Assembly: GCF_022458985.1 (NCBI RefSeq)
Contig: NC_061771.1
Coordinates: 11,224,501 to 11,288,500, forward strand
Origin: Mugil cephalus
Lineage: Eukaryota > Chordata > Actinopteri > Mugiliformes > Mugilidae
DNA: 64,000 nt
Direction of reading: 5' to 3'
This document shows, piece by piece, positions 3,812-64,000 of the stretch; positions within the stretch are counted from its first letter, which is position 1; each line of letters opens with the position of its first letter. Under the pieces are notes generated by a model that saw only the letters and a list, made by a program, of their open reading frames with translations, ran no database searches and was not told the origin of the DNA. A program made the translations under genes and the position numbers.

Positions 3812-6800
3812 TCAGTTCAGGTCAGGGGCTGCAAGCGTGGAGGAGGAGGTTGTAACATCTTGAGCCAGAGACTGTAAAAAAAAAAAGAGTAAGTGAGCTC
3901 TTTGGACATTCTGTTATTTGAAAATGTGCTTGTCTGAGGATGAACTAATGTCCAGGGATTAGCCCTAATGTCTAGTCATTATGGTGCCCTGTAGGCAGTC
4001 TCTGACTAGAACACCTCTATCACTTATGGTCAGCTGTTTTCTGTTAACAAGAAGCTCAAATCTACAGGATTTATTTATTTTTTTTTATTTGGCTTATGAC
4101 TATGTTGCATCGTGTTTACTTCATCACCATAGAAACGGCAACAAGACAGTGACATAAATCCTTTGGCATGTTTCATGAATGAACTGAGCCTGGTCATTGT
4201 GTTGCTATCTGAAAGCAAGGCATCGCTAGGCTACGGCAATGCACGCATGTTAATAATGTCTCTCATCGACTTGGACGGCTTTTGACTTTTCCAATTTAAA
4301 AGTCAAATCTTAGGGGAAAATCCCTTGATACTACACATTTGCTGTGCTGACGGATCAGCTGTTATAATCCTTGTGAGAACGGCGAGCATGCGTAATGCCG
4401 AGGCAGCCACCGCAGTCGAAGAACAAGAGCTGGGTTCTTACGGCATATTGTCCAAATGTGCGTTTCTGCCTGAGGAGAAGGTAGCAGAGGACGGCAGAGA
4501 TGGTTGTCTGAGCCAAAGTGAAGATAAGGAGGGCCCGCTTCACTCCGTTGCTGAACTTCTGTTGTAAAAGGCAGATGACACACACAAAAATCATATACGT
4601 GTCATTATTAAGACACATAAATCTCATTTTTGGGCTCAGACTAACTGTCAGTATAAATGACACGATACTGATGTCCCATGGCCTGCCTCTGCCCCTAAGT
4701 TTCTTCTGTGGAGTGGAGTCAGGTTGTCGTCAACAGCAGCCTCAAATACTAGGCATACTCCACCAAACAGGTAGTGCCTGCTAGACACAGTTGTATTTTG
4801 CCAAACAAGACTTTGACTTTAAAAAGCTAATATTTTCCTGCATTTTATGTACGGATCCTGTTTTCCAGGCTCATCTCAGGCCCCCTCCTGCTACGCTGCT
4901 CGCCCCCGGTTCACGTTTACATTTAGGCTGGAATTCATTCCGCATCTCTGGATGTTCTCAAGCCTGGAAAACACGTCACACGCAGCTCTGTTCCTACACC
5001 TGTAAAACCCTGTGGTATTCATTTCACTTAAGAGCTAGATAAAGCTAACCTTCCATAGACGGGAAGTCGGGGCCAAGTCTCTGCCAAGGCTGCTACAAGT
5101 CTGTAATCTGATTTGTGGTTTGTATGGAAGTGATCTTCAGAGAGAGGCTCTGCTTTTTACAGATAAGATACATTTTAACTGATATCCGTAGGGAAAATTC
5201 AAAGCGAGAAAACTGAATTACACCGATGAGGTTTGATTATGACCAGGGATTTGTGAGGTCAAGTATCTGTGGGTTGATCCACAGAGGCCCCTCCCCACAA
5301 CCCATAAGACCCAAAGGCCTCCACTACAGGACAGAAGGCCCATGTCCATTCTCTGATGAGTCACAAACGTTTTCGAGACACAAGGGAGGCCTACACAATA
5401 TTAGGCAGCCGGTCATACTGTTATACCTATCAAACGCGAAGGATATGATAAAAATGTCTACAACTGGTGTATTAATTTATTGAACTATATCAACACGTAT
5501 AAGCGTCACGTACATAATAATCTATATACAATATATTTTTTACTGTATATCCCAGTCAGTTAAGGCTAGAGGTACCTGGTGATGTTCCTTTGTGCAATCT
5601 AAAGGTCATGAGTAAGAACCTCCTTAAATTCTATGAGTTTTGTATCTGGATGAGTCTGTGACTTAATGCGCTGCCGATGTGTGCATTTGCTGTGTAGTAG
5701 TTTTGAAGTATAAATATAGCGGGACTGACTCCACCGTGATGTAATTCATACATTGTACATATGATAATCAGCTTATGTCTGGCCGGTCATCGCATCATCA
5801 TCAGTTATCTCTCCGAGTGCGAGCACTCCAGAGAGATACGACACAACAAGAGATACAGAAAACAGCATCAAATAAACAGAGGACTAGCAAAGAAAGGCAC
5901 ACAAAGATATCGTGGTGACATGAAATGAATCCAACACCAACCATGGCAAAATGTTGGTCGCTACACGTACGGCCACCGACACACTCCCCTTCGGGATTCT
6001 TGCCAATGTCGACAGCGTAGATGATCACAGCTACCAGTGAGAGCAAGATGGACACCAAGCTCACTATCACGCACACCTGCAACTGAAAAGACACATTTGA
6101 TCTTTCTAAGCGTCAGAGGGGAACGAGAAGTTGTAGCAACAGTATTGTGACCTGCAGAGTTTTTGTTTTGTATATTTGGTTGTATCTTATCTTATTTTCT
6201 CAGGTACTTGTCCTTCATGGAAACTTTGGAAACGAAGATCCTGTGTGTGTTTTAATATACAACAGACCTCAGATGCTAAAGCTACAACGCCATATGTGAG
6301 ACTAAAGGGAATAGTGTGCAGCAGCTAATTAATATGCAGGCTCATTACAAACAGGACAGAGCGGATGTCTACGCATTGAGAAGACTTACCATCTTTAAGG
6401 TGCACTGTTTGTCCAGGAGGATTGCGACCAAACCGGCTGTGATGAACTAGGTGCACACGACCGAGGGAATAGAAAGGCGGATACGTGAAGATCCTTCTGA
6501 CCAAGTGACAAATGCCTTTTAACCGAGCCACTTACCATGAGGCCACTCCACCAAGGAACTCCCAGGGTGACTACCTGAGTCAGCTCAGTGACGTGGAGAG
6601 GAATGGAGTAGGACATGACCATCAGCCCAAGCATCACCTGACTCACCTGGCACAAACACACAGGCACAAACTCCATTGCTCCACAAACTTTTATAGAAGG
6701 AACGAGCAGAAACGGATGAAGACATGTGTTTTTTGAACGGCAGGTTATGCTTTTGAGTCCTGACAGAGGGTTCCCTGGACAGGAAAAATCTGCATTTATG

Positions 6801-20745: not shown

Positions 20746-21016
20746 AATGACCAAAACAGAGAAAAGCCGTCATGGAAAGTTGACATGCGCACTCGGCCCA
20801 GTAGGTGGCACTTTCGTCTTTCCATTCACAAAAGCCTCCTCACTCTCGGTCTTAGCAGAAGAAACTTTGTTGCGTGTTCTTCTTCCGCGGCTGCTCACAT
20901 GTAGCTCCGAGGAGTTTTTTTCCCTCCTCCACTATAAGCTCATATGTTTGTACTGTTACTTTGTCCGTAAGTTTCTTTCGCTCGAGAGGTCTTCGCCACC
21001 AACTTTCGCTCTCATC

Positions 21017-23431
21017 ATGTGCTCTCATTCAAACGGAAGGGCTCCGCTAGTTCTGCTGTGTCTCCTCGGCGTCTTCGTGCTCCGCGTGTCAGGGGAGAAG
21101 GTCCTCCCGGATGGCTCTCCGGGACTGATGCACGAGCTCCGGGCCGCGCTGGCTCACCTGACCGGGGAGGGAAGGACCTACTTGAGCCAGCTGGCGGGGG
21201 AGCAGACGGTGCTGTCGGTGCAGAAGGTGAGATATCCAAGTAATTTAGTCAAGTAGCCGCGTTATTCTTTGCTTTCTTTGAAAGGTTTTTGTAGTTGTTT
21301 GACAAGGGGACAGAAGTCTCGAGGCCACGTCGTACACTTAAAAGACTTTAAGAAGGGTAGAGTAGAGTGTTCCAAACCGGAAGTGTTGACTCGCTTTTAC
21401 AAAAACTACCCGTGACCTATGACCCCTGCGTGTCATAACGTGCAACATGGGATAAATCATGGGCTAAAGAGTAAAGGCTCATAAATGTACGTGGTGTAAA
21501 GTGCCCCCCTTGTTAACATAAACCTCATGTATCTTAATTCATTACTATAACTTGCGATGTTGTTCACTGTGCCGCTTGTCTTCTTCTTTGACCCACAGGC
21601 TTTCTCTCAGGTTCTGGGAGTTTTAGCAGAAAGTCTGGCCGCTGGTGTGAACACACTACTCCAGTATATCTCCCACTTCCTGCAGGCTGCTGGGATCCAA
21701 GGTGAGGCTGTTCCCACCATTGTCCCAGTAAAGCATAAAACCAGACGCTCCTATGAATACATCAGGTCAGGTCTGCTCACACTGTGATGCCAGTGATGTT
21801 GCCCCCCCCTCTCACATGTACAGCGAGTCGCCCGTTCTAACGTCAGGAGTGCCCCCCCCCTCCCTTTTGCCACTTCATCAGTGTGATGAATTTGTGCAAA
21901 AATTAAGACATTAAGTGACAAATTTTCCAATAAAAGCAACTGCTATTCCTAGAGTTCACACCGTTTTTGTGGACATAACATAACACTGAGATCTAGAACT
22001 AAACAGAATTGGCACTTTTTATCTTCAGTAATGTCCGGTTGTTCATTACGTGTTTTGAGTTTCATAACATACTTGTACTTCTTTGCACTCAAACAAAGGG
22101 AAACATTTGGAGCTGTTGTTAATTATGGGTAACGCTGTTGTGTTACTGGTCCGGCCCCCTTGAGATCAAACTGGGCTGCATGTGGCCACTGAACTAAAAT
22201 GAGTTTGCAGGATAACAACCCAAATGTGAAATTCCCAAGTACTAAGTGTCGTACTATGGTGGACGCTCATCTTCTACGTGAAAATGGCGGGTAACTGCTG
22301 CTTGTCTAGCTAGTGCGCTACTGTCACGTGATGAAAGTCAAGTCACCGACTAGTCGCTAATTACGCCACTTATAAAAAGCCAGTAGTAGAGGTAATGAAA
22401 TCCACATTCTTGACCTGAATACAAATGGTGAGAAGAGACGGCTCATGTGCTACATGTTGTGTGCTGAAGATATGTACAGCCTGTATAAAAACAGGGAACC
22501 CACTCAGCACCATCAGTAGCAGTTAAGAGTACTTCACAAGCATGTCCCAAAGGTGGAATAGTGAAGCCGGATAAAAAAACAAAACAAAAAAAACAACACA
22601 GTATTTCTCCGACACCTTCTTTCTGTGTGTTGCAGCTAAAGGTCAAATAACTTAACACCGACAAACTGTTGATTTGCAGCCTCCTGTCCCTGTTACTGCA
22701 GGACGTTTGGTGAAGTTGTTAGCTAAAGTCCTCTGAAGCTGCATCACATAAAACTACAAAGAATAGACAAAAACGATTTGGAACTTTGATGTTATTCACA
22801 CAAAATAGCTGTGATAATATGAGGAAAGTTAGTCTGAGTGAATCAATAGCAATACGTCAACAACCTGTATGTTTGTGTGAGAAATTAATTTGGAAGAAGT
22901 GAATATGAATTATGAGACGTTGATACAGACCCGTACTGTCGAACTTTTAGTCAGGTTCAGAAATAGTTTTAAAGCAAATGAATTCTGTTCTATAATATAT
23001 TTTTTCTATCATTTTGTCAAACCTCTTTTTTGTTGTTCCTCTCAGTTGGCTTCCCCATCGATGAAGTAACCTCAGAGGGGCTGATCTTTGTTGCCCAGTG
23101 GGCCCTCATGGCTTTCATCGGCTACTGGCTGATCTCCCTTGCTTTCCGGTTGGTTGCCTCCACCCTGAGGCAGGCTCTGAGGGTGCTGAAGTGGGCCGTG
23201 GCTTTGGTTGCGTTTGGACTTATCCTGAGGGACCACCAGGCGGGCACGGAGGCCATGGCGTTGCGACTGCTAATCCTCGTGTGCGTCTGCGTCGTTTTGG
23301 GAGTTGGGATGTCAGGGGGTTCCAACGCCGCTGAAAAAACCGCTCGCCTGGAGGAGCAGGTGAACATCCTAGAGCGGCGGCTGAAAGAGATGGAGAGGTG
23401 GACGCGGACAAAAGAGCGAAAGAGGGAGTAG
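21017..23431 (+). CDS. tmem109: transmembrane protein 109 (mitsugumin-23)
   Basis: Three exons: 21017-21226, 21599-21701 and 23046-23431, giving 232 residues (human about 243). Residues 1-26 are a signal peptide (LVLLCLLGVFVLRVSG). Residues 71-104 form a hydrophobic or amphipathic segment. Two clear membrane segments follow at about 116-138 (GLIFVAQWALMAFIGYWLIS) and about 150-190. The cytosolic end at about 200-225 is a charged coiled coil (LEEQVNILERRLKEMERWTR). Order and motifs match TMEM109, a voltage-insensitive cation-channel-like protein of the endoplasmic/sarcoplasmic reticulum and nuclear membranes linked to DNA-damage survival. Human TMEM109 lies at 11q12 beside the MS4A cluster, as it lies beside two MS4A-like genes here. 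The stop is a tandem TAG TAG. A strong inverted repeat begins four bases after it. AATAAA is at 23730. Confidence 0.92.
22040..22210. mobile_element. second copy of the short hAT family, in tmem109 intron 2
   Basis: Shares AAACAAAGGGAAACATTTGG, AGCTGTTGTTA and TTGTGTTACTGGTCCG with the element at 16826-17114. Ends are eroded. Confidence 0.65.
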
Positions 23432-26630: not shown

Positions 26631-27768
26631 TACAGCATATTGCCAAAAGTATTCGCTCACCTATCCAAATAACTGAATTCAGGTGTTCCAATCACTTCCA
26701 TGGCCACCGGTGGATAAAATCAAGCACCTAGTCATGCATCTACGTGCTTCTACATTTGTGAAAGAATGTGTCGTTCTCAGGAGCTCACTGAATTCCAGCG
26801 CGGTGCACTGAACTGTCAGTGGTATTCTAACAAAGTAGAAGCGATTGGGAACGATAGCAACTCCGTCATGAAGTGTCAGGTCATGTAAAATGACAGAACG
26901 GGGTCAGTGGATGCTGAGGTGCACAGAGGTCACCAACTTTCCGCAGAGCCAATTGCTACAGACCTCCAAACGTCATGAGGCCTTCAGATTAGCGCAAGAA
27001 CAGTGTATAGAGAGCTCCATGGAACGAGTTTCCATGGGCCAGCAGCTGCATCCAAGCCATACATCACCAAGTGCAATGCAAAGCGCGGGATGCAGTGGTG
27101 GAAAGCACCACCACTGGACTCAATAGAGCAGTTGAGACGTTCAATGGAGTGACCAATCAGGCTTCTCCATCTGGCAATCTGATGGACCAATCTGGGTTTG
27201 GTGATTTCCAGGAACGGTACTTGTCTGACTGGATTGTGCCAAGTGTGAACTTGGGTGGAGGGGGGATTAAGGTGTGAGGTTGTTGTTCAGGAGCTAAGCT
27301 TGGCCCCTTAGTTCCAGTGAAAGGAACTCTGAATGCTTCAGCATACCAAGAAATTTTGGATAATTCCATGATCCGTGATCCATGTTCCATGCACTTCGTG
27401 GGAACAGTTTGGGAATGAACCCCTTCCTGTTCCAACACGACTGTTCACCAGTGCACAAAGCAAGATCCATAATGATATGGATGATCGAGGTTGGTGTGGA
27501 AGAACTTGACTGGCCTGCACAAAGTTCTGACGTCAACCAGTGAGAACACCATTGGGATGAATTAGATGAAGACTGTGAGCAGGACCTTCTAGTCCAACAC
27601 CCTCACCAATGTGCCTCTGGAAGAATGGTCAAATCCCATAATATAGCTGTTATAGCTGCAAAGGGTGGGCCCATGTAATATTAAACCGCATGGATTAAGA
27701 ATGGGAGGTCACTTAAGTTCATATGCGTGTAAAGACAGGTGAGTGAATACTTTTGCCAATACAGTGTG
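26631..27768 (+). mobile_element. near full-length but dead Tc1-like transposon
   Basis: Terminal repeats ATTGCCAAAAGTATTCGCTC (left) and GAGTGAATACTTTTGCCAAT (right) bound a 1.1-kb unit. The body is recognisable teleost Tc1-like transposase DNA (GTGTTCCAATCACTTCCATG, CAGACCTCCAAACGTCATG, GAAAGGAACTCTGAATGCTT, TGACTGGCCTGCACAAAG). Frameshifts and deletions break the frame into pieces of fewer than 80 codons. The left end lies in a (TA)n run. Confidence 0.85.
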
Positions 27769-28507: not shown

Positions 28508-28513
28508 TTTATT
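28508..28513 (-). terminator. possible polyadenylation signal of the Ig-like gene
   Basis: AATAAA on the minus strand 64 bases after the stop codon at 28577-28579, next to a (TA)n run. This would give a very short 3'UTR, so a later signal may be used instead. Confidence 0.45.
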
Positions 28514-28576: not shown

Positions 28577-31500
28577 CTACAGGAAGCTGGAGGATTTCCC
28601 ATTGTCAATTTGGAACTGGTAAGCACCACTGGAGTCAGTGAGAGTGTTGGCGGGGTTTGAAGGGTCAGGGGCCGCAGGAGAAGATGCACCGTCACCCTGG
28701 GAATAAAAACAAACGTACATACGATGACTTTGCTTCTGTTTCTCGATTCATCAAGGGAGAGAGTGAGCCATGTAACATTGGTCAACCATTGGAACTGAAG
28801 CAGCGTATCGAACAATCGCTTCATGACTCCTAATTGCTCTTTAAGTTATGTAAGTTTGACCCCCCAGACTGTTCATAAACATGGACAACGCATCCCTACG
28901 TCCTCTCACTAGTTAAACTAACGCTACTGTGCTGGGGATACAGGTGGCACCACTATGCGAGTTTGGCACTAGAGTCTACGCAGTACAGTCCAAGATTGAA
29001 GCCAGGTGGAGCCACGCTATCAATGACGCACCTCTGCCTGACTCAGTTGTGCTTCATTTGATTGATATTGCACTCTGCTCCACCTCCACCAATTACAAAG
29101 AAATGTTCGATTATACACTATATAATAATAATAGAACATAATAACAATGTTATTTATTTATTAATTTGTTTTTTCCAATTTTTGCAGTACTGCAAGGCTA
29201 CTTCTAGGGGTGGTTGGCATGGCAACTGGTAGTCATCATGATGTCACATCCTGTTTCTATACCGCCAAATAAGTAAAACGAAGCTTATCAGGAAAATAGA
29301 CACTTGAGTATGCATCAGTATTATAAATGTATTTGACGTGTATTTAAGTGTTGTAGTTTGGCCCCGGTCCCATCCACTAACATGGAGGAGCTGGAGCTTA
29401 TGACCTATACTGCAGCCAGACACCAGGGGGAGCTCTACTTGCTTGGGCTGTTCCACATTCATCTTTAAACAGTCTATGGTTTGAGTCATGAAGGAAAAAA
29501 AATCTTTTGGACCATTCAAACAATAACATAAATGATTACATCTTGGTGTGTCTGCCAGTTCGATTCCTGGAATGTGTCCCACGCTGAACCATGAATTCAT
29601 AGAATAGTCTCTGCATTATTCTACATTTTTTACCTTCAAAAGTGTCTTGTTTTGAACGGCATACTGCTCACACGTGCCTTAAACTGCTCCCTGGGAACAA
29701 ATAAAGCTACAATGTGTACACTGTAACTGTAAAGTGCTTTGAATACCAATAGGTAGAAACCCATTTACCATCGCTTTTTCATCAGCTTTCTGGTAAAACA
29801 TTTAAAACTCAACACTTATTACTGTCAAGCTTTCAATAATGGTTCTTCAGTATATTTAGAATTAAGACTGGATGAGATGACATTTAAGCTATTGGATAGC
29901 CTGGATGAAAATATGGAGCTAAATATAGAGCTAATGTGACTGATGCAGTTATATTAACTCATCCTTTCCTTAGCTCTAAGATGTTCGTTGTTGGCATTTC
30001 CATAGCAGCTAAACAAGTTTTAAACTCTACAGTAACATTATTTGATTTCAAATGGAAAAGACTGTTTTTGTTGTTTTGGGCCAACAGGATGCCTACTCAT
30101 GTTGCTATGGTGTGCTCGTTGTAGGTACGGAAAAATCCGGTTGCTTAGATTCATTTGAGAGGCGATGCAAATTTAAACAAGAGAATCAACAAGAGACTCT
30201 ACTGACTGTACAAACTCTAAGAGACACTAGTCTGAGAAGAATCATTGTCTACACATGCTAGCGCCTTCAGCAGCGAGCTGACTCATCTCTCCGTGCTGTG
30301 TGTATACCTGTGGTGCAGCACTCAGCAGTGGTTCAGCAGGTGAGGAAGCCTTATTCTCCATCGGTGCAGACTCTTTCATCGGCTCACTTGATGCTGGTGG
30401 AGCGCTATACATCACTGGAGCATAGCCCTGCACACACACGCAAAACAAACAAACCAAACAAAAAATACAACTCACTCTTGGGAAATCTACACATTCTTAT
30501 CCTTATTCTAACAGTATCCTTAGCTACTTCACTCAAGGGGATGAAAACAAATCGATGTTGACTTTGCTTCCCTTTTTCAATTCAACAGGAGAGTGTTTGA
30601 GTACCAGTCAATACATGCCCGGCTCTCTCAGCAGAATTCAGTTTTAAGTTGTCGAAAATCTGTGTGGGGACACATATTTTGTCCCCATATATCGGCCTAG
30701 TGTCACACACAGTTTTCCGATTTTTCCTGTATAAATCTCTTAAACCACTTCAGCACTTCACAAAACTACCAAGAATTCAATCATTTTGGGGAATTTTAAC
30801 CCTTTAAATCCCAGTTTGATTACTTGAAGTCACTGTTGTTTTTTACAACAACAACAAAAAAAAAACTTGAAAAATTAGCTATTTTCCATAAAACTGATAT
30901 TGGGTGGCTGGGGTATTTTTTTTCATATCAGTCTTGGGTATGACCACGATTATCAAAAATATTGACTTGATTGGATTAGTAGTTTTTGTGTAGCATCAGA
31001 TTTAAAATTTACCACCCTCTTGTAACCTTAGCAGAGAAAAAACGTCCCATTGACTTCCATTACAACTCCATTTTTTGCTCTCTTAGTCATGAAATAAAAT
31101 AAAATCAGCCATTTCCCAATTAGATAGATGGATAGATAGATTACTTTATTCATCCCCGAAGGCAAATAAGGATATAAGACCTATGCATAAAATGTTTGTT
31201 ATTTCATTCATTTTTGTGCATGTGTCATTGAGCTTAGCAGGCGAAAAAAAATTCATAGTGTTCTGTTGAGCCACCGAAATATATATATATTTTTTTAAGT
31301 AGGGATAGACTTTGTGCCATGTTGCTAAGGTTACCTAAGGGTTAAGATAAAGCTTAGTTTAGTCTTCAGATAGATAGGTAAATAGATCATACCATTGGTG
31401 CTGTGGGTCCGGGGGGGTACTGGCCCTGTGGTGGGCCATTCCATTGTGGAGCCTGGGGAGAGGGCATCATAGCTGGGCCAGCAGGAGGGTAGGAAGGGTT

Positions 31501-34500
31501 CGGGGGTGGGTAGGCTGGATTAAAACCCTGCAGAATTAGACAATCAGTTAAGCCATGAAACATTTTTGTGTATACACACTCTCCAACAGGTTTTTAATCA
31601 AAGTAGTCAGGATGATATGAGGCAAGGTAAGTGAAGTGTGTTTGTACTTAGGAAAGCAGGCTCAATTCATGATACTCACAGAGGGGGGAGGAGGATTCCA
31701 ATCTCCTGGGCCAGTGACTGGAGGAGGATGTACTGCAGGACCCTGTACAGGACATGGCAAGTATCCAAGTACGCTCTCGTCAAATAGTTCAACAATCCTT
31801 CTGCATATATCACAAACAACCAGTAAATGCAGTGGTGCGTTGTGTAATGACCATGTGCTCTGTATTATGTAGTGAAGTGTGTTACGTTACGTGACGTACC
31901 ATGCCAGGGTTGGTACCATTATAGTACACCTGCAAACAGAGAAAATATGTTAAGTAATTTAACCAGTTCAACATCAACAAGCCATTACCAGGTTGAATTC
32001 AACACAGGCCAACTACGCCTCCACCCCGTTTATTATAATTCTACTATGAAATATGTAGTTATAGTAATATACTAATAGTATATTATTAGTATAATCTCAC
32101 AGCATTTGGTTGTCCAGGCGAGTTGTAGGGAGGACATGGTCCAACGGGACCAACTGGCCCAACTGGGCCCCCGGAGGGAGGATGGATGGTTTGTGGGGAC
32201 GCCTGCAGAGACAAAAACACACATTATGAGCTGAATGAATTATTATTGTCATCACTAATTATTCATTGATAGTCTCGGACTAAATATTTCTCTCGTCTTT
32301 CAGACCTAGTTTCATTTAGTTCCAGTTATTTTTTTAGTTCTAGTTCTTCAGTTTTAATGTTAAGTTCATTGCAAAACATGAGCTATTTAGTGAAATGACT
32401 GGAGCTCATATAGGTTTATAATTCTTCCATATTTAACATCGAAATCATTTATTAATATTTTTATTAATAAAAACCTAAAAAACAATATATCTGAATGAGG
32501 TCACAGCAACAGCTGAACAACTTGGGGGGTTTAAGTCTAATTATTGTTATCATTAGTAGGAAAGAGTGAGATTTTAAAAACATGAATGAAAATTGACACT
32601 TTAACTTCCCCAATCAAAACTGTATATTAGATTAAACACGTATGTCATAAAGATGCTGGAGCCATTTGAAAAATTCTTAATGGCACATCTTACGCTACAA
32701 ACGTGTCAATGCTTTGGCCAAAAGAGAAACCTACTGAACATTTCCGGCTAAGTAGAACAAAATCCAGACATCTACAGCTTTCACGCTACCTTATGTGTGT
32801 AACAGCTTTGTGTCTGCTGTCGACTGTACCTGCAGCGTGGCAGCGTTGGTGGCTTTCTTTTTGAAAATCTTTTTCCGGCAGCAGCAGCAAATTCCAGCTG
32901 GGATACCGAGCAGCAGGAGCAGAGCAATGAGAGGGTTTCCCTGTACTCCCTCACGGTGGTCTGCAGAAGATAAAAAAGAGGATGGGACGGGGACACGCAG
33001 GTTACAGCAGAACACGCCTTCCTCACGAGACAAAACTATTTTTTACCAGCACCGAGGCATTCGCTTACTCATTTAACTATTCTTTCCTCTCTTCAGTTTA
33101 CGGTCTGCTGGTTACCATGCTGCTGGTTGTCAAATTCCTCCTATTGTCATTACCACTGCTAGGTTACCATTTGCTCAGTCATGTTAAAGGAATGTAAATG
33201 ACACTTGGGCTCTGGGAAACAAACCACCCAGTGAAGTGACTGATGAAGTAACCAGAATATAAAGAACAAACAAATCAAGTAAGAGTATAACATTTCAGTT
33301 CAAGCGAGGACTCAGTGTGCATACAACAATCAAGGCGATGGACACTTAAAAAGGCTCGACTAATGGGCAGCACGGAGACAAAACTACTCAAGGACATATA
33401 GATAGACAGAGATATAGATAGAGATATAGAACCAACTGAAAAGCAGAGACATCTCATTTTTAAATGAAACAGAAAACAAGCTCAGAGAGAAAAAACGTAA
33501 CCCTGTTTGTATTTGGACTATGAGATACAATGGTGCCAAATAGGAACAGAGCAACTACTTAAACGTTAAAGCAGGTAGGATTCAATAATGGACTCACATG
33601 CAGTGAACGGTGCCCCCAGTATTTAAACACAACCAGAACGACTGACCTGAGCGCAGCAACATCTGAACAGACGATAACGTCCTCAGATAAAACGTGAACA
33701 CAATAAAACACACAATAGTCTGACTAGACTGAACTAACCGAACTTTATTATTTCATCCAGTCTTGTTTCTTTGTGTTGCGTCCCTTTCCCTGCTACACCA
33801 GTGACAAAAAAAAACAAAACCCACCTATCAGGTCCATCTTGGTTATCGACACCACCCGATCCCTTCGGTCTGTCAAGGTGTAACGTCCCTCATCAGTGAA
33901 GTTCACGTGCCTGATCTCAATATTCGAGCTGTGGGTCTGGACCCGGTCCCAGTAATCTGGAAGGTCCTGGGACACCCTGGCACCATCGCGCACCTTTGGG
34001 TGACAAACATGTTGGATCACCAGCGCGTTACTGCCCGGAAAACTGTGACCTTTACACCAGAGACAAGTGAAACATCTGCTAAATGCATCTCACCAGTGTA
34101 ACGTTAGCACTCTGCCCAGAGAAGGAGAGGGAAGCGTCGGCCATGTTGACTCCCTCCAGTGAGATGTAGAGACTCTCTCCGGCTAAACACGTCAAGTAGT
34201 TACGTCTGGCTTGAATAGAGAGAAGAACAAAGCAAAGGAGTGATCAAAACTAAATCTCGTTCTGTTGTAATCCTGTTAGTTTTTGTGTTTGCTGTTTACA
34301 TCTTGAAATCTTCTTCCCGCGCCTTTGTTAAACGTGCTTTACTTCCTGTGTTTGTGGTCTTTCTCCCCGTGTGCCTCTGTGTGTGTTTCCTCGTGTTCCT
34401 GTTCAAATGATCATGTTCCTGGGTTCTCGTCCGGCTTTCTATTTATTTGGATTACACGTGTTTCTGGATCTGGATTTTTGGATTTTATCTGCTTCACGTT

Positions 34501-37500
34501 ATTTAAAGTTACTGTATTTTTGTTCCAAGCATTTGGGGCCCGCCTCACAACTCGGAGCATGACAGTAACGTGCCTTTACATCAGACTGGCCATCAGCTGA
34601 AAATCTTTGGACATATTTTATTTTTTTTTCATAAACAACTACATTTTTCCACGTGTCCTTTTCTAGTCCAGATTAAATATCACAGCTCAGCAGAACAAAG
34701 TACAAACAAGTGTGTGAATGTGTGTGGGTTAGCGCTTATACTTTTCAATGACAAAACAATGAACAAACTCGTATGAAAAGAACCCCTCTCAGTTACCAGT
34801 TACGTGTTTATGGGCTGCATTTACACTACATCCAGGAATGCAGGACTTTCCAGCAGAGATGTGGACGTGTTTATTTGTGCTTTAGACCGCAAACACAAAA
34901 AACTGTCTTTCCCTCTCTTGCGTGCTTTGCCACATCTGTGCACTCTCTCTCTCTCTTGAGCGAGAGGGAAAAACAAGGGAGAGAACAGAGTCACGAATCA
35001 AATAAATAAACAGAAAGCATGTGTGGATGGTTATGCTCATGCAGTTGTTCCCAAAAGGATCGTTTCTGTTCTTGCTCTCGGTTAGAAACAAAAGTTTTAA
35101 TCATGCTGAGAGAAGTAGCTGCATGAGATGTGGACAGGCTCACATCTTTACAATCCCTCTGAAATCTGGTTCACACGGATCGGAAGCATGCGTCTGATCA
35201 GTTCATTATCTCGTCAGTATACTGTATTTGGCCCAAATCTTATCAATGAGTGACGGGCCAGCATCCTTCACAGGATGTTGATTAGGTTGATTAAACTTCA
35301 AATCAGTTTAATCAACAGCCTGTTATGTAAGAGATTTTAAGAACCAAATGTTCTTAGGAAACACGGCTGATTCGACTCCTGGTTAACTTACGTATTACTG
35401 CCACTTTCACGTTGGCTATCTCTTTGTTCCAGTAGTCTCTCTGGACGTACGTGCCCTGGTCCTCATACGTCACCTAATGGAAAAACATACAGACCAAATC
35501 AATACGCTGTATAAAAAATAAATAAACAATCACTGTGGCTCTGTAGACAGAGCAGGTTGTGGTTCGACCCCCAGGTGTATGAGCTGTATGAGTCCATGGG
35601 CAACACACTGAGCTCCAAACTGCTCTGAGTGGATAGACTGTACAGCACTGTCATACCAATGGGTTGAAAGGTGCAAATGCAAGTCAATGTACGACTTACT
35701 GAACCTGTAACCTGAAAGAAAACTGACTAATTTAGGTTTGGACAGAAGTGCAATACCTTTACGTAAAACATTAACCACCTCATTAATCTAAAGGAGCCAT
35801 TTTAGCAAATTCTGATGATAAAAAAGTAAAATAATAAAACCTTGATTACCTTGTCAATATACCAGCGCCGGTCACTGCCCGTTCCAGACACCCTGCCTTT
35901 GTTCAGCCTATTGGGGACACCAAAATGGCCACATAGAAATTGAGCTCCTGTAACAGTACTGAAAGCTATTCAAATCTTGCCATCCTGTCTACAACCAGAA
36001 CGTGGGCTGTTCCTTAGTGTCTCTGACCTGTGGAAGCCCTTTTCCCAGTACAAAAAGGTCTTTCCGGGTTCATCAGCCGGAGTGAACTCCAGCTTCTCCG
36101 TATTCTTGCCCATGTAGATCTTCAGCTGTCGGCCATGGGCCAAACGCTCATTGATGTCGTGGACAGCATAAGACTCTGAGTTAAAGGAAAAACACGAAGG
36201 ACAATGAACTGCTGATTACAGAGTCAGGGAAGCAAACTATAAACAGAGCTAAATCCAGCATAGGTCAGCTTCCTGCGATAACTGTGGAATGTAACTTGTC
36301 TTAAATAAAGATGGCTGCCGTGGCTGGGCGGCATTCCGGTACATACCAAATACCGTTATTTTTTTCCGTGATGACATGAATTTTTAATATACTGGCATAC
36401 CGCTGTATTTGATTACACAACATTCGGAACGCTGCGCCGTGAAACACTGACCAGACCATTTTCGATGTAGCACCTCTATACATGCGTCATTGCAAGGCGT
36501 GGAAAGATGGAAAGGTCCGAAAAACGTAGCGGCAGAACAAGAGGACTTGTGCCAAAACAAGAAGTTGTGTCGGTTGTTTGGGGTTTCTTTGGGAGGGGAC
36601 CAGATGTCCCCAAATTTAGCTTTGTGAATGTGAAAAAACTACAATTATTACAGTAGCTGGTCGCACTGCTTTTGACATAACAGTTTAAATATGTTTAAAT
36701 ATGTCAAAATAAATGAAAGCGCAATTGTCCCTGTTTCTTCATTTCATCTTGATAACATTTATTTATTTTTTTTATCTCTGAGCTGTAAATGTCCCATGAC
36801 TCCCACATCAGCATTCAGTGTTAACACGAGGCTGTGTTTTATTACTAGTGTGGGATCTTTCTACAATATTTCCTCATCATTGCAGTAAAATATTCATCCT
36901 TAGTAAATCTACTGCATTAATTCCTCCCTCAACCAGTAGAAAATATTGTGAACATGTGATTATGTATTTCAAAAATAGTTCCCTAATATACTGTGATACC
37001 ATCAGAATTTTGAAAAATACTGTGATATATATTTTTGGTCATACCGCCCAGCCCTAATGGCTGCTAGACTGAATAAAGTAAAGAGATGATGATGATGATG
37101 TAAAACTACATTTTAATCCGATTATAATTACACCTTGAATTATGTCAAGCAATCAGTGTCTTCTTTGAGGTTAACTTCAAGGAAATAATGTGGTTTGAGA
37201 CATTTTAGTGTTAAGGAGGTTGGTAGAAGAGAAAAATGAGGCCAAGTGATGGAAATATACTCACTTGCCAGTACATTAAGTAAATTAGGGAATACAACTC
37301 TATTCTAGAGTAACAGTCCTGCACTATATCCTAGATTCATGAAATATACGGTATTCGTAAGATATCGACCGATATATTGACCGATATTTGTGTTTTTTAC
37401 TGGTATCAGCATCGGTGCCTTCACTGATTTATTTTTATCCCGGCATCCACAGGCAGCCCTGTGCTGCTGGAGACCCTGCAGACGCTGTGAACCTGTGCAG

Positions 37501-38269
37501 CCCATACATTGACCATCCCCCACTAGCAGAGTACTTGGAGCTGGAAGCTGGAAAATGCTTGTCCTTTATCTCTTTTTACCTGTTTATTTAAATATTCTTT
37601 GAGGTCAACAAATGTTTATGTTTTTGGTTAAACTGAGTCACTGTATCATGTAAACAGAGAGAGAAAAAGCAGTATCGGCTCCAAATATTGGCTCTATTAT
37701 ATGCCCATTTTTGTCAGCGGGCTAGACTTAATAACAGGAACATTATAGACAAACAATAATACTATGAATAACGTGAAAGGGGATTTAGTGCAGGGCTGTA
37801 GTAGAAGAATGCATTCATTTTCACCGGTGTGCCTAATGTTGTAAGTTATTTATAGTTTTATCAATGAATCTTTTAGTGGTGCATTGAGCACATATGATGC
37901 TGTGCACGTCCTCCATCTCATTGTCCTTCACTGCATTGTCCTATACCTTGAACCCAACAGCTGTCCAAACATTAATCTATAACACAGCCTTCATTATTTT
38001 TGAGTAAAAATGAGAAAACTTTAAAACTAGTCTGGTGCAAATAGGTACCATGAGCACTTCACATCTTGCTGTGTGCTACCCTTTCTTGTCTATCTACTGG
38101 AGTGTTGCCAGTAGAAAATAAAAGTTCTTCCTCCAACTCTATAACTGATGATACAGATGTTAATACTGGCATCCCAAACTTCACACAGGAGTAAATGTGT
38201 CGGAGTGGTGAGATCATACTCACCTACGATGACGGCAGCCGACAGCAGGATCACAACGTTCCAAATCAT
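28577..38269 (-). CDS. type I membrane protein with cysteine-poor Ig-like ectodomain and proline-rich tail
   Basis: Thirteen minus-strand exons: 38269-38224, 36175-36028, 35907-35850, 35473-35392, 34209-34094, 33993-33825, 32960-32830, 32202-32101, 31929-31900, 31742-31680, 31527-31393, 30427-30308, 28696-28577, giving 439 residues. Residues 1-15 are a signal peptide. Two Ig-like units follow: about 17-111 (motif YEDQGTY at 87-93) and about 112-206 (motif DEGRY at 184-188). The first has no cysteine and the second only C119, so the usual Ig disulfide is absent. N-glycosylation sites are N147 and N181. A short membrane segment at about 215-232 runs into CCCC (231-234) and RKKIFKKK, a likely palmitoylation and stop-transfer site. 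Residues 251-439 are a Pro/Gly/Tyr-rich cytoplasmic tail with GPVGPVGPVGP, NPPPPSG and YPPPNPSYPP. The tail comes from six exons whose lengths are all multiples of three. Not recognised by name; an adhesion or immune-type receptor is an inference. The exon 5 acceptor (TCAAG) is the least certain junction. Confidence 0.8.
29700..29770. mobile_element. SINE-tail fragment in Ig-like gene intron
   Basis: TAAAGTGCTTTGAATACCAA followed by CCCATTTACCATC is the tail type of the teleost tRNA-derived SINE seen more fully at 35531-35700. Confidence 0.45.
31120..31180. mobile_element. LINE 3'-end fragment in Ig-like gene intron
   Basis: TAGATAGATTACTTTATTCA followed by TCCCCGAAGGCAAAT is the characteristic 3' end of fish Rex1/L2-type LINEs, here inverted and reduced to about 50 bases. 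Confidence 0.5.
35286..35316. repeat. perfect 12-bp inverted repeat in Ig-like gene intron
   Basis: GTTGATTAAACT (35286-35297) and its exact complement (35305-35316) with a 7-base spacer, 76 bases beyond the exon ending at 35392, in the minus-strand sense of the transcript. Confidence 0.8.
35531..35700 (+). mobile_element. tRNA-derived SINE in Ig-like gene intron
   Basis: A pol III A-box-like stretch (TGTGGCTCTGTAGACAGAGC) and a B-box (GGTTCGACCCCC, 35561-35572) are followed by CATGGGCAACACACTGAG and the tail ATGCAAGTCAATGTAC. This is a common teleost SINE plan. It sits in the intron between exons 3 and 4. Confidence 0.65.
36319..37056. mobile_element. hAT element with intact 8-bp target duplication, in intron 1 of the Ig-like gene
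   Basis: The ends GGCTGGGCGGCATTCC (left) and ATACCGCCCAGCCCTA (right) are inverse copies. The exact 8-bp direct repeat ATGGCTGC lies at 36311-36318 and 37057-37064. Length is 738 bp and no transposase frame is seen. Confidence 0.88.
37330..37735. mobile_element. hAT-type repeat with GATATATTGACCGATAT core
   Basis: Contains ATCGACCGATATATTGACCG and later AGTATCGGCTCCAAATATTG, a palindromic pattern of a common fish DNA repeat. Ends are approximate. Confidence 0.45.
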
Positions 38270-44984: not shown

Positions 44985-45495
44985 ATTCCAGTCAAGTCCC
45001 TAAACTTCACTGCTGTGGTCTTGGAACATGTCTCTATGATGTTATGCAAGCTTTTTTTCCCCCTTTTTTTTTATCTCAAAGCGTAAGGCTGAGAAACCAG
45101 CAGGACCGACTGACAAAGAGTTCAGTTTGTGGAGAAGATGAATTCTCTGTTTCGCCCACTTTACAATATCTGCAGTGTTTACATCAAATTTGAGATTCTG
45201 GTCAAACAAGGTGCCTAGATAGTTTTATGAAGCAACCATTTACCAGTTTAAAATCAACGAGCTCCTTAGGTTTGGACACATTTAAGTAATTACTGTCTCA
45301 CCATGAGACAAAATCAACAAGAGTCTCTCCATGTCCTGATTCAGGTCCTTGAAGGAAGCACAGGAGTGCAGTATCATCAGAAAATTTGATTAAGTAGCTG
45401 CCTTCTTTCACACTCCTGCATTCATCCGTATGCAGGATGAAGAGTAAGGGGGAGAGGACACACCCCTGTGGTGAACCGGTGGACAGAGCTAAGGA
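44985..45495 (-). mobile_element. LINE reverse-transcriptase relic
   Basis: The minus strand from 45487 reads STGSPQGCVLSPLLFILHTD, then IKFSDDTALLCFLQG, then LNVSKPKELVDF. These are the palm motifs of a Rex1/L2-type reverse transcriptase. An in-frame stop after VDFVSW and the missing flanks show it is dead. Confidence 0.75.
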
Positions 45496-46506
45496 GTTTG
45501 AGACACAACTATTTACAGAAACCCTCTGCTTTCTGTTAGTTTAAAAAGTCTGATGACCATAAATCAATCTAAAATCACTCATTAGTGAGTAAAAGGTGCA
45601 GCTGCATCAAGTTAAATTCTAAGGAAAAAGTCAGTGAATAAGAACCTCGCATGAGCTTGTGACTTTTCCAAATGGTTTTAGAGGCAGTAAAGAATAAAAA
45701 GCGCACTTGACTAGAATAGCCTACCATACTGTAGTCCGTAGTCCTCTTTCAACCCCCATGACATTCCTGGAAATTTCCATAAAATATTATTCTTATTATT
45801 AATATTATTGTTATATAAAATTAATTTAATAACCAGCACACTGACTAGGACCATCCTATGCATAGTTGGTATGTTCTGTGTGGGCTTCTTTCCCATCTTT
45901 CAAAGACATAGGTGTGGCTGGGACTGGTTATTTATCTTTTTATTTTAGCCCCATGACAGCAGCCTGTTCAGGCAGGGGTTTTTAGTCCAATGTCAACACG
46001 ACCCTCTGAATAGAGGGTCACAAGAATATCTGCATGTTTTATGTGTTTCAAACACATAGTTCATGACAAAAATATCCAAAATATGCTCTGTCACCATTAT
46101 TATATTTTGTTGTTCTCTTGTGTTTCTGATCTGACAGCCACCTGCATCATTTTGTCATATGCCAAATCTGGAGACTAAACCTAAACCAAAAAAAAAAACA
46201 AAAGTGAAAAGCAGTTTGAAGACACAGCTCATGAAAACACTCGTCTTCATTGTATGTGATGTGGTGTAATGAAATCTTGGTCATGAGTCTAAGTCTGAGA
46301 CAACAAACCATTTAGTTTTATTATTATTTATTTACAAACACTAACAATGTCAGAATACAGAAGAACCTGTCATATCCCAATTTAAGTAGCTTGGTTTAAA
46401 TAAAAACACAGTAAATAATAAGATGAACATTTGTCCATTTGTATTTGCATTTGTCAGACTAATACTAAAGCCTGTAGGCTACACCCAGAGTTTTACGCTG
46501 GACGTT

Positions 46507-54912: not shown

Positions 54913-64000
<9,088 letters not shown>

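Follow-up and report, generated by a model that had tools for sequence, protein, structure and literature searches.

Gene model

The DNA analyzed here, hereafter the window, is a 64,000-nucleotide stretch of the Mugil cephalus genome (C2:11224501–11288500), and the element under study is a minus-strand gene, running from window position 38269 to 28577, that encodes a putative divergent surface protein of the immunoglobulin (Ig) superfamily. Its 13 coding exons, rebuilt from the DNA with exon ends picked by eye, join into one open frame of 439 codons plus a stop without a single internal stop codon, and GT..AG boundaries are found at all 12 introns. The gene is real and intact, and its product is a type I membrane protein; the 439-residue membrane protein proposed in an earlier note on this DNA is thus upheld. 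An AATAAA poly(A) signal (28508..28513, minus strand) starts at the 64th base past the stop codon (at 28513).

Exon 1 (38224..38269, minus strand, as are all exons below) encodes a signal peptide-like start (MIWNVVILLSAAVIV), in which the most hydrophobic 11-residue stretch spans residues 5 to 15, and ends in phase 1. Its ATG lies directly 3′ of an acceptor-like tttgcag, so a non-coding 5′ exon may lie upstream. Ig-like domain 1 is encoded by exons 2 (first part; 36028..36175, phase 1 to 2), 3 (middle; 35850..35907, phase 2 to 0), and 4 (end, including DQGTYVQ placed by alignment to PDB proteins; 35392..35473, phase 0 to 1), and Ig-like domain 2 by exons 5 (first half, with C119; 34094..34209, phase 1 to 0) and 6 (second half, with DEGRYTL placed by alignment to CADM2; 33825..33993, phase 0 to 1). 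Exon 7 (32830..32960) carries the transmembrane segment, assigned by hydrophobicity, followed by a proline-rich tail encoded by exons 8 to 13.

Ectodomain

Phase-1 introns usually bound Ig modules, and each of the two domains, exons 2 to 4 and exons 5 and 6, is bounded by phase-1 introns at both ends. D-x-G-x-Y motifs occur at residues 89 to 93 and 184 to 188; two such motifs at Ig-domain spacing arose in only 6 of 20,000 shuffled ectodomains. When the 191-residue ectodomain was compared with Pfam, four Ig families were returned below cut-off, Ig_3 (E 1e-4), V-set (3e-3), I-set (8e-3), and ig (0.02), along with the non-Ig family DUF6160 (0.08). None of nine control sequences (eight shuffled ectodomains and one reversed) matched an Ig family, and two of the nine matched other families weakly (0.029 and 0.05). 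The Ig_3 match was weaker with the full-length protein (E 8.8e-4) and was also obtained with domain 2 alone (E 0.0064). Among PDB matches of the 93-residue domain 1, 8 of 14 were Ig proteins and 6 were not. The 58-residue core of this domain gave 23 weak matches, 18 of them Ig proteins (11 Fc gamma receptor III, six antibody light chains, and CD48), all at E ≥ 0.18. Domain 2 aligned to CADM2 (E 0.73). The exon-6 fragment, folded without relatives, was predicted to form strands at its residues 27 to 32, 37 to 42, and 47 to 51, which sit where strands E, F, and G would be expected, a weak support for the fold because the mean predicted local distance difference test score (pLDDT) was 59.7. An Ig-like ectodomain, as the earlier note had proposed, is consistent with the sub-cut-off Pfam, PDB, and exon-6 evidence, all of it weak, and with the phase-1 borders; membership in the Ig superfamily appears supported, if weakly.

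The cysteines of the whole protein are residues 119, 231 to 234, and 273, the last of which lies in the tail and had gone unmentioned previously. Within residues 16 to 207 only C119 is found. A disulfide between strands B and F is common, yet not obligatory, in the Ig superfamily; here the cysteine positions confirm the previous claim that, with a single ectodomain cysteine, the canonical bond is impossible. When domain 1 is aligned with an antibody light chain, EDQGTYVQ pairs with EDVGTYYC, so that Q95 occupies the position of the F-strand cysteine; in the alignment of domain 2 with CADM2, DEGRYTL pairs with DEGQYTC, so that L190 takes this position. In our reading, the B-strand cysteine of domain 1 would be replaced by F46, with the core tryptophan retained as W59. 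The corresponding place in domain 2 would be taken either by L129, with F141 at the tryptophan position as in the CADM2 alignment, or by F141, with L150 at the tryptophan position.

The surprising feature is that both disulfides are absent together, the remainder being ordinary for the superfamily; a surface receptor in which neither Ig domain has one would be uncommon. Titles and abstract openings among the matches listed in the literature search, which also covered the neighbors kdm2aa and tmem109 and CD2/SLAM, hepaCAM, A33, and the CTX group, named no cysteine-less fish Ig receptor. The zebrafish gene name wu:fc21g02 was dropped as a lead, the name “fc21g02” being absent from the literature searched. 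The word “disulfide” occurs zero times in the excerpt of PMC8470474.

Membrane span and tail

Hydrophobicity over 19 residues peaks at positions 216 to 234, a stretch that ends in a CCCC cluster (231–234) followed by the basic run RKKIFKKK. The cluster lies at the inner face of the membrane, in agreement with its earlier placement at the membrane. The tail comprises 205 residues, 50 of them prolines, and its exons measure 102, 30, 63, 135, 120, and 120 nucleotides (nt), all in phase 0. Exon 8 (32101..32202; 34 residues) contains GPVGPVGPVGP and C273, exon 9 (31900..31929) encodes 10 residues, and exon 10 (31680..31742) encodes 21 proline-rich residues. Exon 11 (31393..31527; 45 residues) contains, by motif scan, NPAYPPP, NPSYPP, and PTAP (356–359), and exon 12 (30308..30427) encodes 40 residues; each of these five cassettes is phase 0 at both ends. 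Exon 13 (28577..28696) encodes the last 39 residues and the stop, with the C-terminus KSSSFL (a class-I PDZ-type S-x-L end). The intron before it, the last of the gene, holds a 123-codon open stretch (29247–29615, minus strand). The sizes and phases that the earlier note gave for six skippable tail exons stand, whereas the claim that any of them could be skipped fails for exon 13; five exons rather than six are simply skippable (8–12), because exon 13 bears the stop codon and the C-terminus.

The six tail exons are alike in composition only: compared as possible mutual duplicates, 15 of 15 pairs fell inside the shuffle range, with exons 12 and 13 lowest (61 of 500). No candidate for an extra cassette was found in the six tail introns by a strict splice-site rule, one that would miss exon 11's own donor.

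Sixteen motif patterns, chosen after the protein had been read, were counted in the tail and compared with 5,000 shuffles. The 205 residues contain no SH3 class I (RxxPxxP) or class II (PxxPxR) motif, no PPxY, and no PPLP, nor any EVH1, GYF, YPxL, 14-3-3, or immunoreceptor tyrosine-based inhibitory motif (ITIM). Bare PxxP occurs 16 times against a shuffle mean of 11.8 (P 0.085), and YxxPhi and YxN occur once each (P 0.71 and 0.45). The C-terminal class-I PDZ-type end (S-x-[hydrophobic]) gave an uncorrected shuffle P of 0.031. The proposal that the tail offers exchangeable SH3 or WW ligands is unsupported by the sequence, since such motifs are absent from it. Better guesses, but no more than guesses, are that the last exon holds a PDZ anchor and that exon 11 acts as a sorting cassette.

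Comparison with known receptors

Two genes of the same genome served for comparison: a JAM-A-like gene (C15 ∼2.5975–2.600 Mb), so named for its best match to human JAM-A, and CXADR of the CTX group (C15 ∼7.678–7.689 Mb), with its intron phases inferred by eye. Like JAM-A, the protein combines a pair of Ig-type domains with a single membrane span and several tail exons, with the distal domain spread over three exons (148, 58, and 82 nt here; 60, 117, and 147 nt in JAM-A) and the letters S-S-F at the C-terminus (KSSSFL here, KSSFVV there). In the excerpt of PMC3399880, the JAMs of zebrafish are described as type I receptors with two Ig domains and a terminal PDZ motif, and the three-exon distal domain of JAM genes is termed unusual. 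In contrast to the present gene, JAM-A retains its Ig cysteines, lacks a CCCC after the span, and has a short tail. The exons of its domain 1 are all phase 1 at both ends, whereas the introns within domain 1 here are in phases 2 and 0. Its proximal domain is encoded by exons of 203 and 103 nt separated by a phase-0 intron that lies 12 residues from the tyrosine of D-x-G-x-Y, as compared to 37 residues here. The C-terminal S-F-L is of class I, in place of the type II F-V-V of JAM-A. A weak BLASTP match to JAM-A (E 0.048) covers only 26 residues around the D-x-G-x-Y motif, and intron positions and phases in both domains differ from those of JAM, one JAM gene having been compared.

CXADR likewise has two Ig-type domains, juxtamembrane cysteines (LFCCFRARNKKK, CC, as compared to CCCC), and a class-I PDZ-type end (SIV, as compared to SFL), and a phase-0 intron cuts its distal V domain close to strand C′, much as one cuts domain 2 here. 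Domain 2 may descend from a CXADR-like split V domain. However, CXADR retains its cysteines, has its distal domain in two exons rather than three, and combines a phase-0 split in the distal domain with a phase-1 split in the proximal domain, an arrangement not found in the present gene when this one member of the group was compared. The two comparison genes retain PDZ-type ends themselves (KSSFVV, L033 2528–2566; GSIV, L034 1501–1785). The protein fits neither family because intron positions differ from those of JAM-A and CXADR and because both of these keep their cysteines; to that extent the earlier statement that no standard family has this layout holds.

Glycoprotein A33 (GPA33) is described in the excerpt of PMC7830191 as a single-span protein with two Ig-like domains whose tail carries four cysteines in a row, features that all recur in the present protein; its tail of 62 residues is described there as highly polar, in contrast to 205 proline-rich residues here. 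The four-cysteine cluster is therefore not new. With the GPA33 layout (PMC7830191) and the PDZ-type ends of JAMs (PMC3399880) already in print in these excerpts, “undescribed system” was an overstatement.

Copies and genomic neighborhood

When exons 2 to 7 alone, without the tail, were used as a BLAST query against the whole genome (634.8 Mb in 24 contigs; E up to 10), six matches were obtained, all inside the gene itself. KDM2-like loci were found on C2 (in the window), C5, and C19. Neither this protein nor the TMEM109 pieces gave a match at E ≤ 1 in 40 kb of upstream sequence at the C5 and C19 loci or in the 10 kb on either side of the window. No second copy was detected by this exon-wise BLAST, which could miss a strongly diverged one. 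A D-x-G-x-Y-containing frame on C5 (L015), in AT-rich sequence interrupted by many stops, was rejected as a copy. One or both of the C5 and C19 loci may be kdm2b and not duplicates of this neighborhood. Pattern searches gave 83 matches in bacterial and archaeal genome contigs and 17 in viral contigs, none of which was confirmed.

On the plus strand, positions 20747 to 23428 hold a TMEM109-like gene whose joined pieces match the Pfam family BRI3BP (3.1e-37). Positions ∼56383 to 61934 (plus strand) hold a KDM2-type gene with a CXXC zinc finger (Pfam, 5.1e-16), presumably KDM2A, its other exons being tentatively assigned. An open frame at 5804–6112 (minus strand) resembles by eye a membrane-spanning MS4A-type exon; a 62-residue piece of it matched no Pfam family at E ≤ 1. 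Broken open frames at 26872–27675 (plus strand) resemble a remnant of a Tc1-type transposase, and a frame on the opposite strand there matched no Pfam family. Reverse-transcriptase-like words (LSPFLF or LSPLLF, then FSDD) at 2487–2900 and 45301–45540, both on the minus strand, likely mark, as judged by eye, long interspersed nuclear element (LINE) remnants.

Discussion

The explanation that we favor, and to which we give about an even chance, is that this is an intact bony-fish gene for a divergent Ig superfamily surface protein that acts in effect as an adhesion or scaffold receptor of the JAM, CXADR, and A33 type. The protein would work like these receptors and need not belong to any of them. 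Both domains would keep the Ig beta-sandwich through hydrophobic packing in place of the B–F disulfide, and the protein would bind a partner either in its own membrane or on an adjacent cell. Once palmitoylated, the CCCC cluster would place the protein in ordered membrane, and the C-terminus would tether it to a PDZ scaffold. A disordered linker would owe its length and its sorting signals to the tail cassettes, with exon 11 supplying both NPxY motifs and PTAP.

Several observations weigh against this reading. Every Ig match scores under the Pfam cut-offs, and domain 1 alone matches no Pfam family at E ≤ 1. In the PDB, a designed, non-Ig protein gives the top match to domain 1 (E 0.0033), and non-Ig proteins make up four of the five PDB matches of the ectodomain (the single Ig match at E 1.6) and three of the four of domain 2. 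The C-terminal letters resemble those of JAM yet stop one residue short of KSSFVV, which alters the PDZ class. No tail motif is significant after correction, because 16 patterns were tried and selected after the protein had been read.

One alternative is a CD2/SLAM-type immune receptor that has diverged, with a disulfide-free domain 1 and a proline-rich tail that would recruit leukocyte cytoplasmic adaptors. First domains of CD2/SLAM proteins lack the disulfide, and the CD2 tail is proline-rich, a likeness on both counts; CD48 accounts for one of the 23 weak matches that the domain-1 core gave in the PDB (E 0.87). In the CD2/SLAM/hepaCAM group, however, the second domain is disulfide-bonded and each domain occupies a single exon, whereas domain 2 here lacks a cysteine pair, the domains are split over three and two exons, and the tail contains neither an ITIM nor a basic PxxP motif. 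We consider such an origin unlikely. Just as unlikely, in our view, is a trafficking receptor whose main business would be endocytosis and endosomal sorting complex required for transport (ESCRT) sorting via exon 11, toggled by exon 11 skipping. This exon is a phase 0–0 cassette that holds all of the NPxY (two, P 0.010), YPP (three, P 0.011), and PTAP (one, P 0.17) motifs of the tail, but the post hoc choice of patterns deprives these values of significance, and skipping of exon 11 is purely hypothetical. Least probable is a non-Ig ectodomain with beta structure of another kind and D-x-G-x-Y motifs arisen by chance, which the sub-threshold Pfam scores, the empty Pfam result for domain 1 alone, and the mostly non-Ig PDB matches of the ectodomain and domain 2 would favor, but which is at odds with the four Ig families that match the real ectodomain and none of the nine controls and with the phase-1 borders of both units.

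A bolder reading is a fish-restricted receptor lineage in which both Ig domains have become disulfide-free yet remain folded and functional and in which the cassettes are spliced in and out to switch exon 11 endocytic and ESCRT sorting while the exon 13 PDZ anchor stays constant; this reading we regard as doubtful, if a little less so than the alternatives above.

As it stands, the gene is one more uncharacterized Ig superfamily-type surface protein, and it may well be annotated as such in fish databases already. If both Ig domains are disulfide-free, the protein would serve as a natural model for extracellular Ig folds that manage without disulfides, and if the tail cassettes are alternatively spliced, it would be a compact case of receptor sorting tuned by frame-neutral exons.

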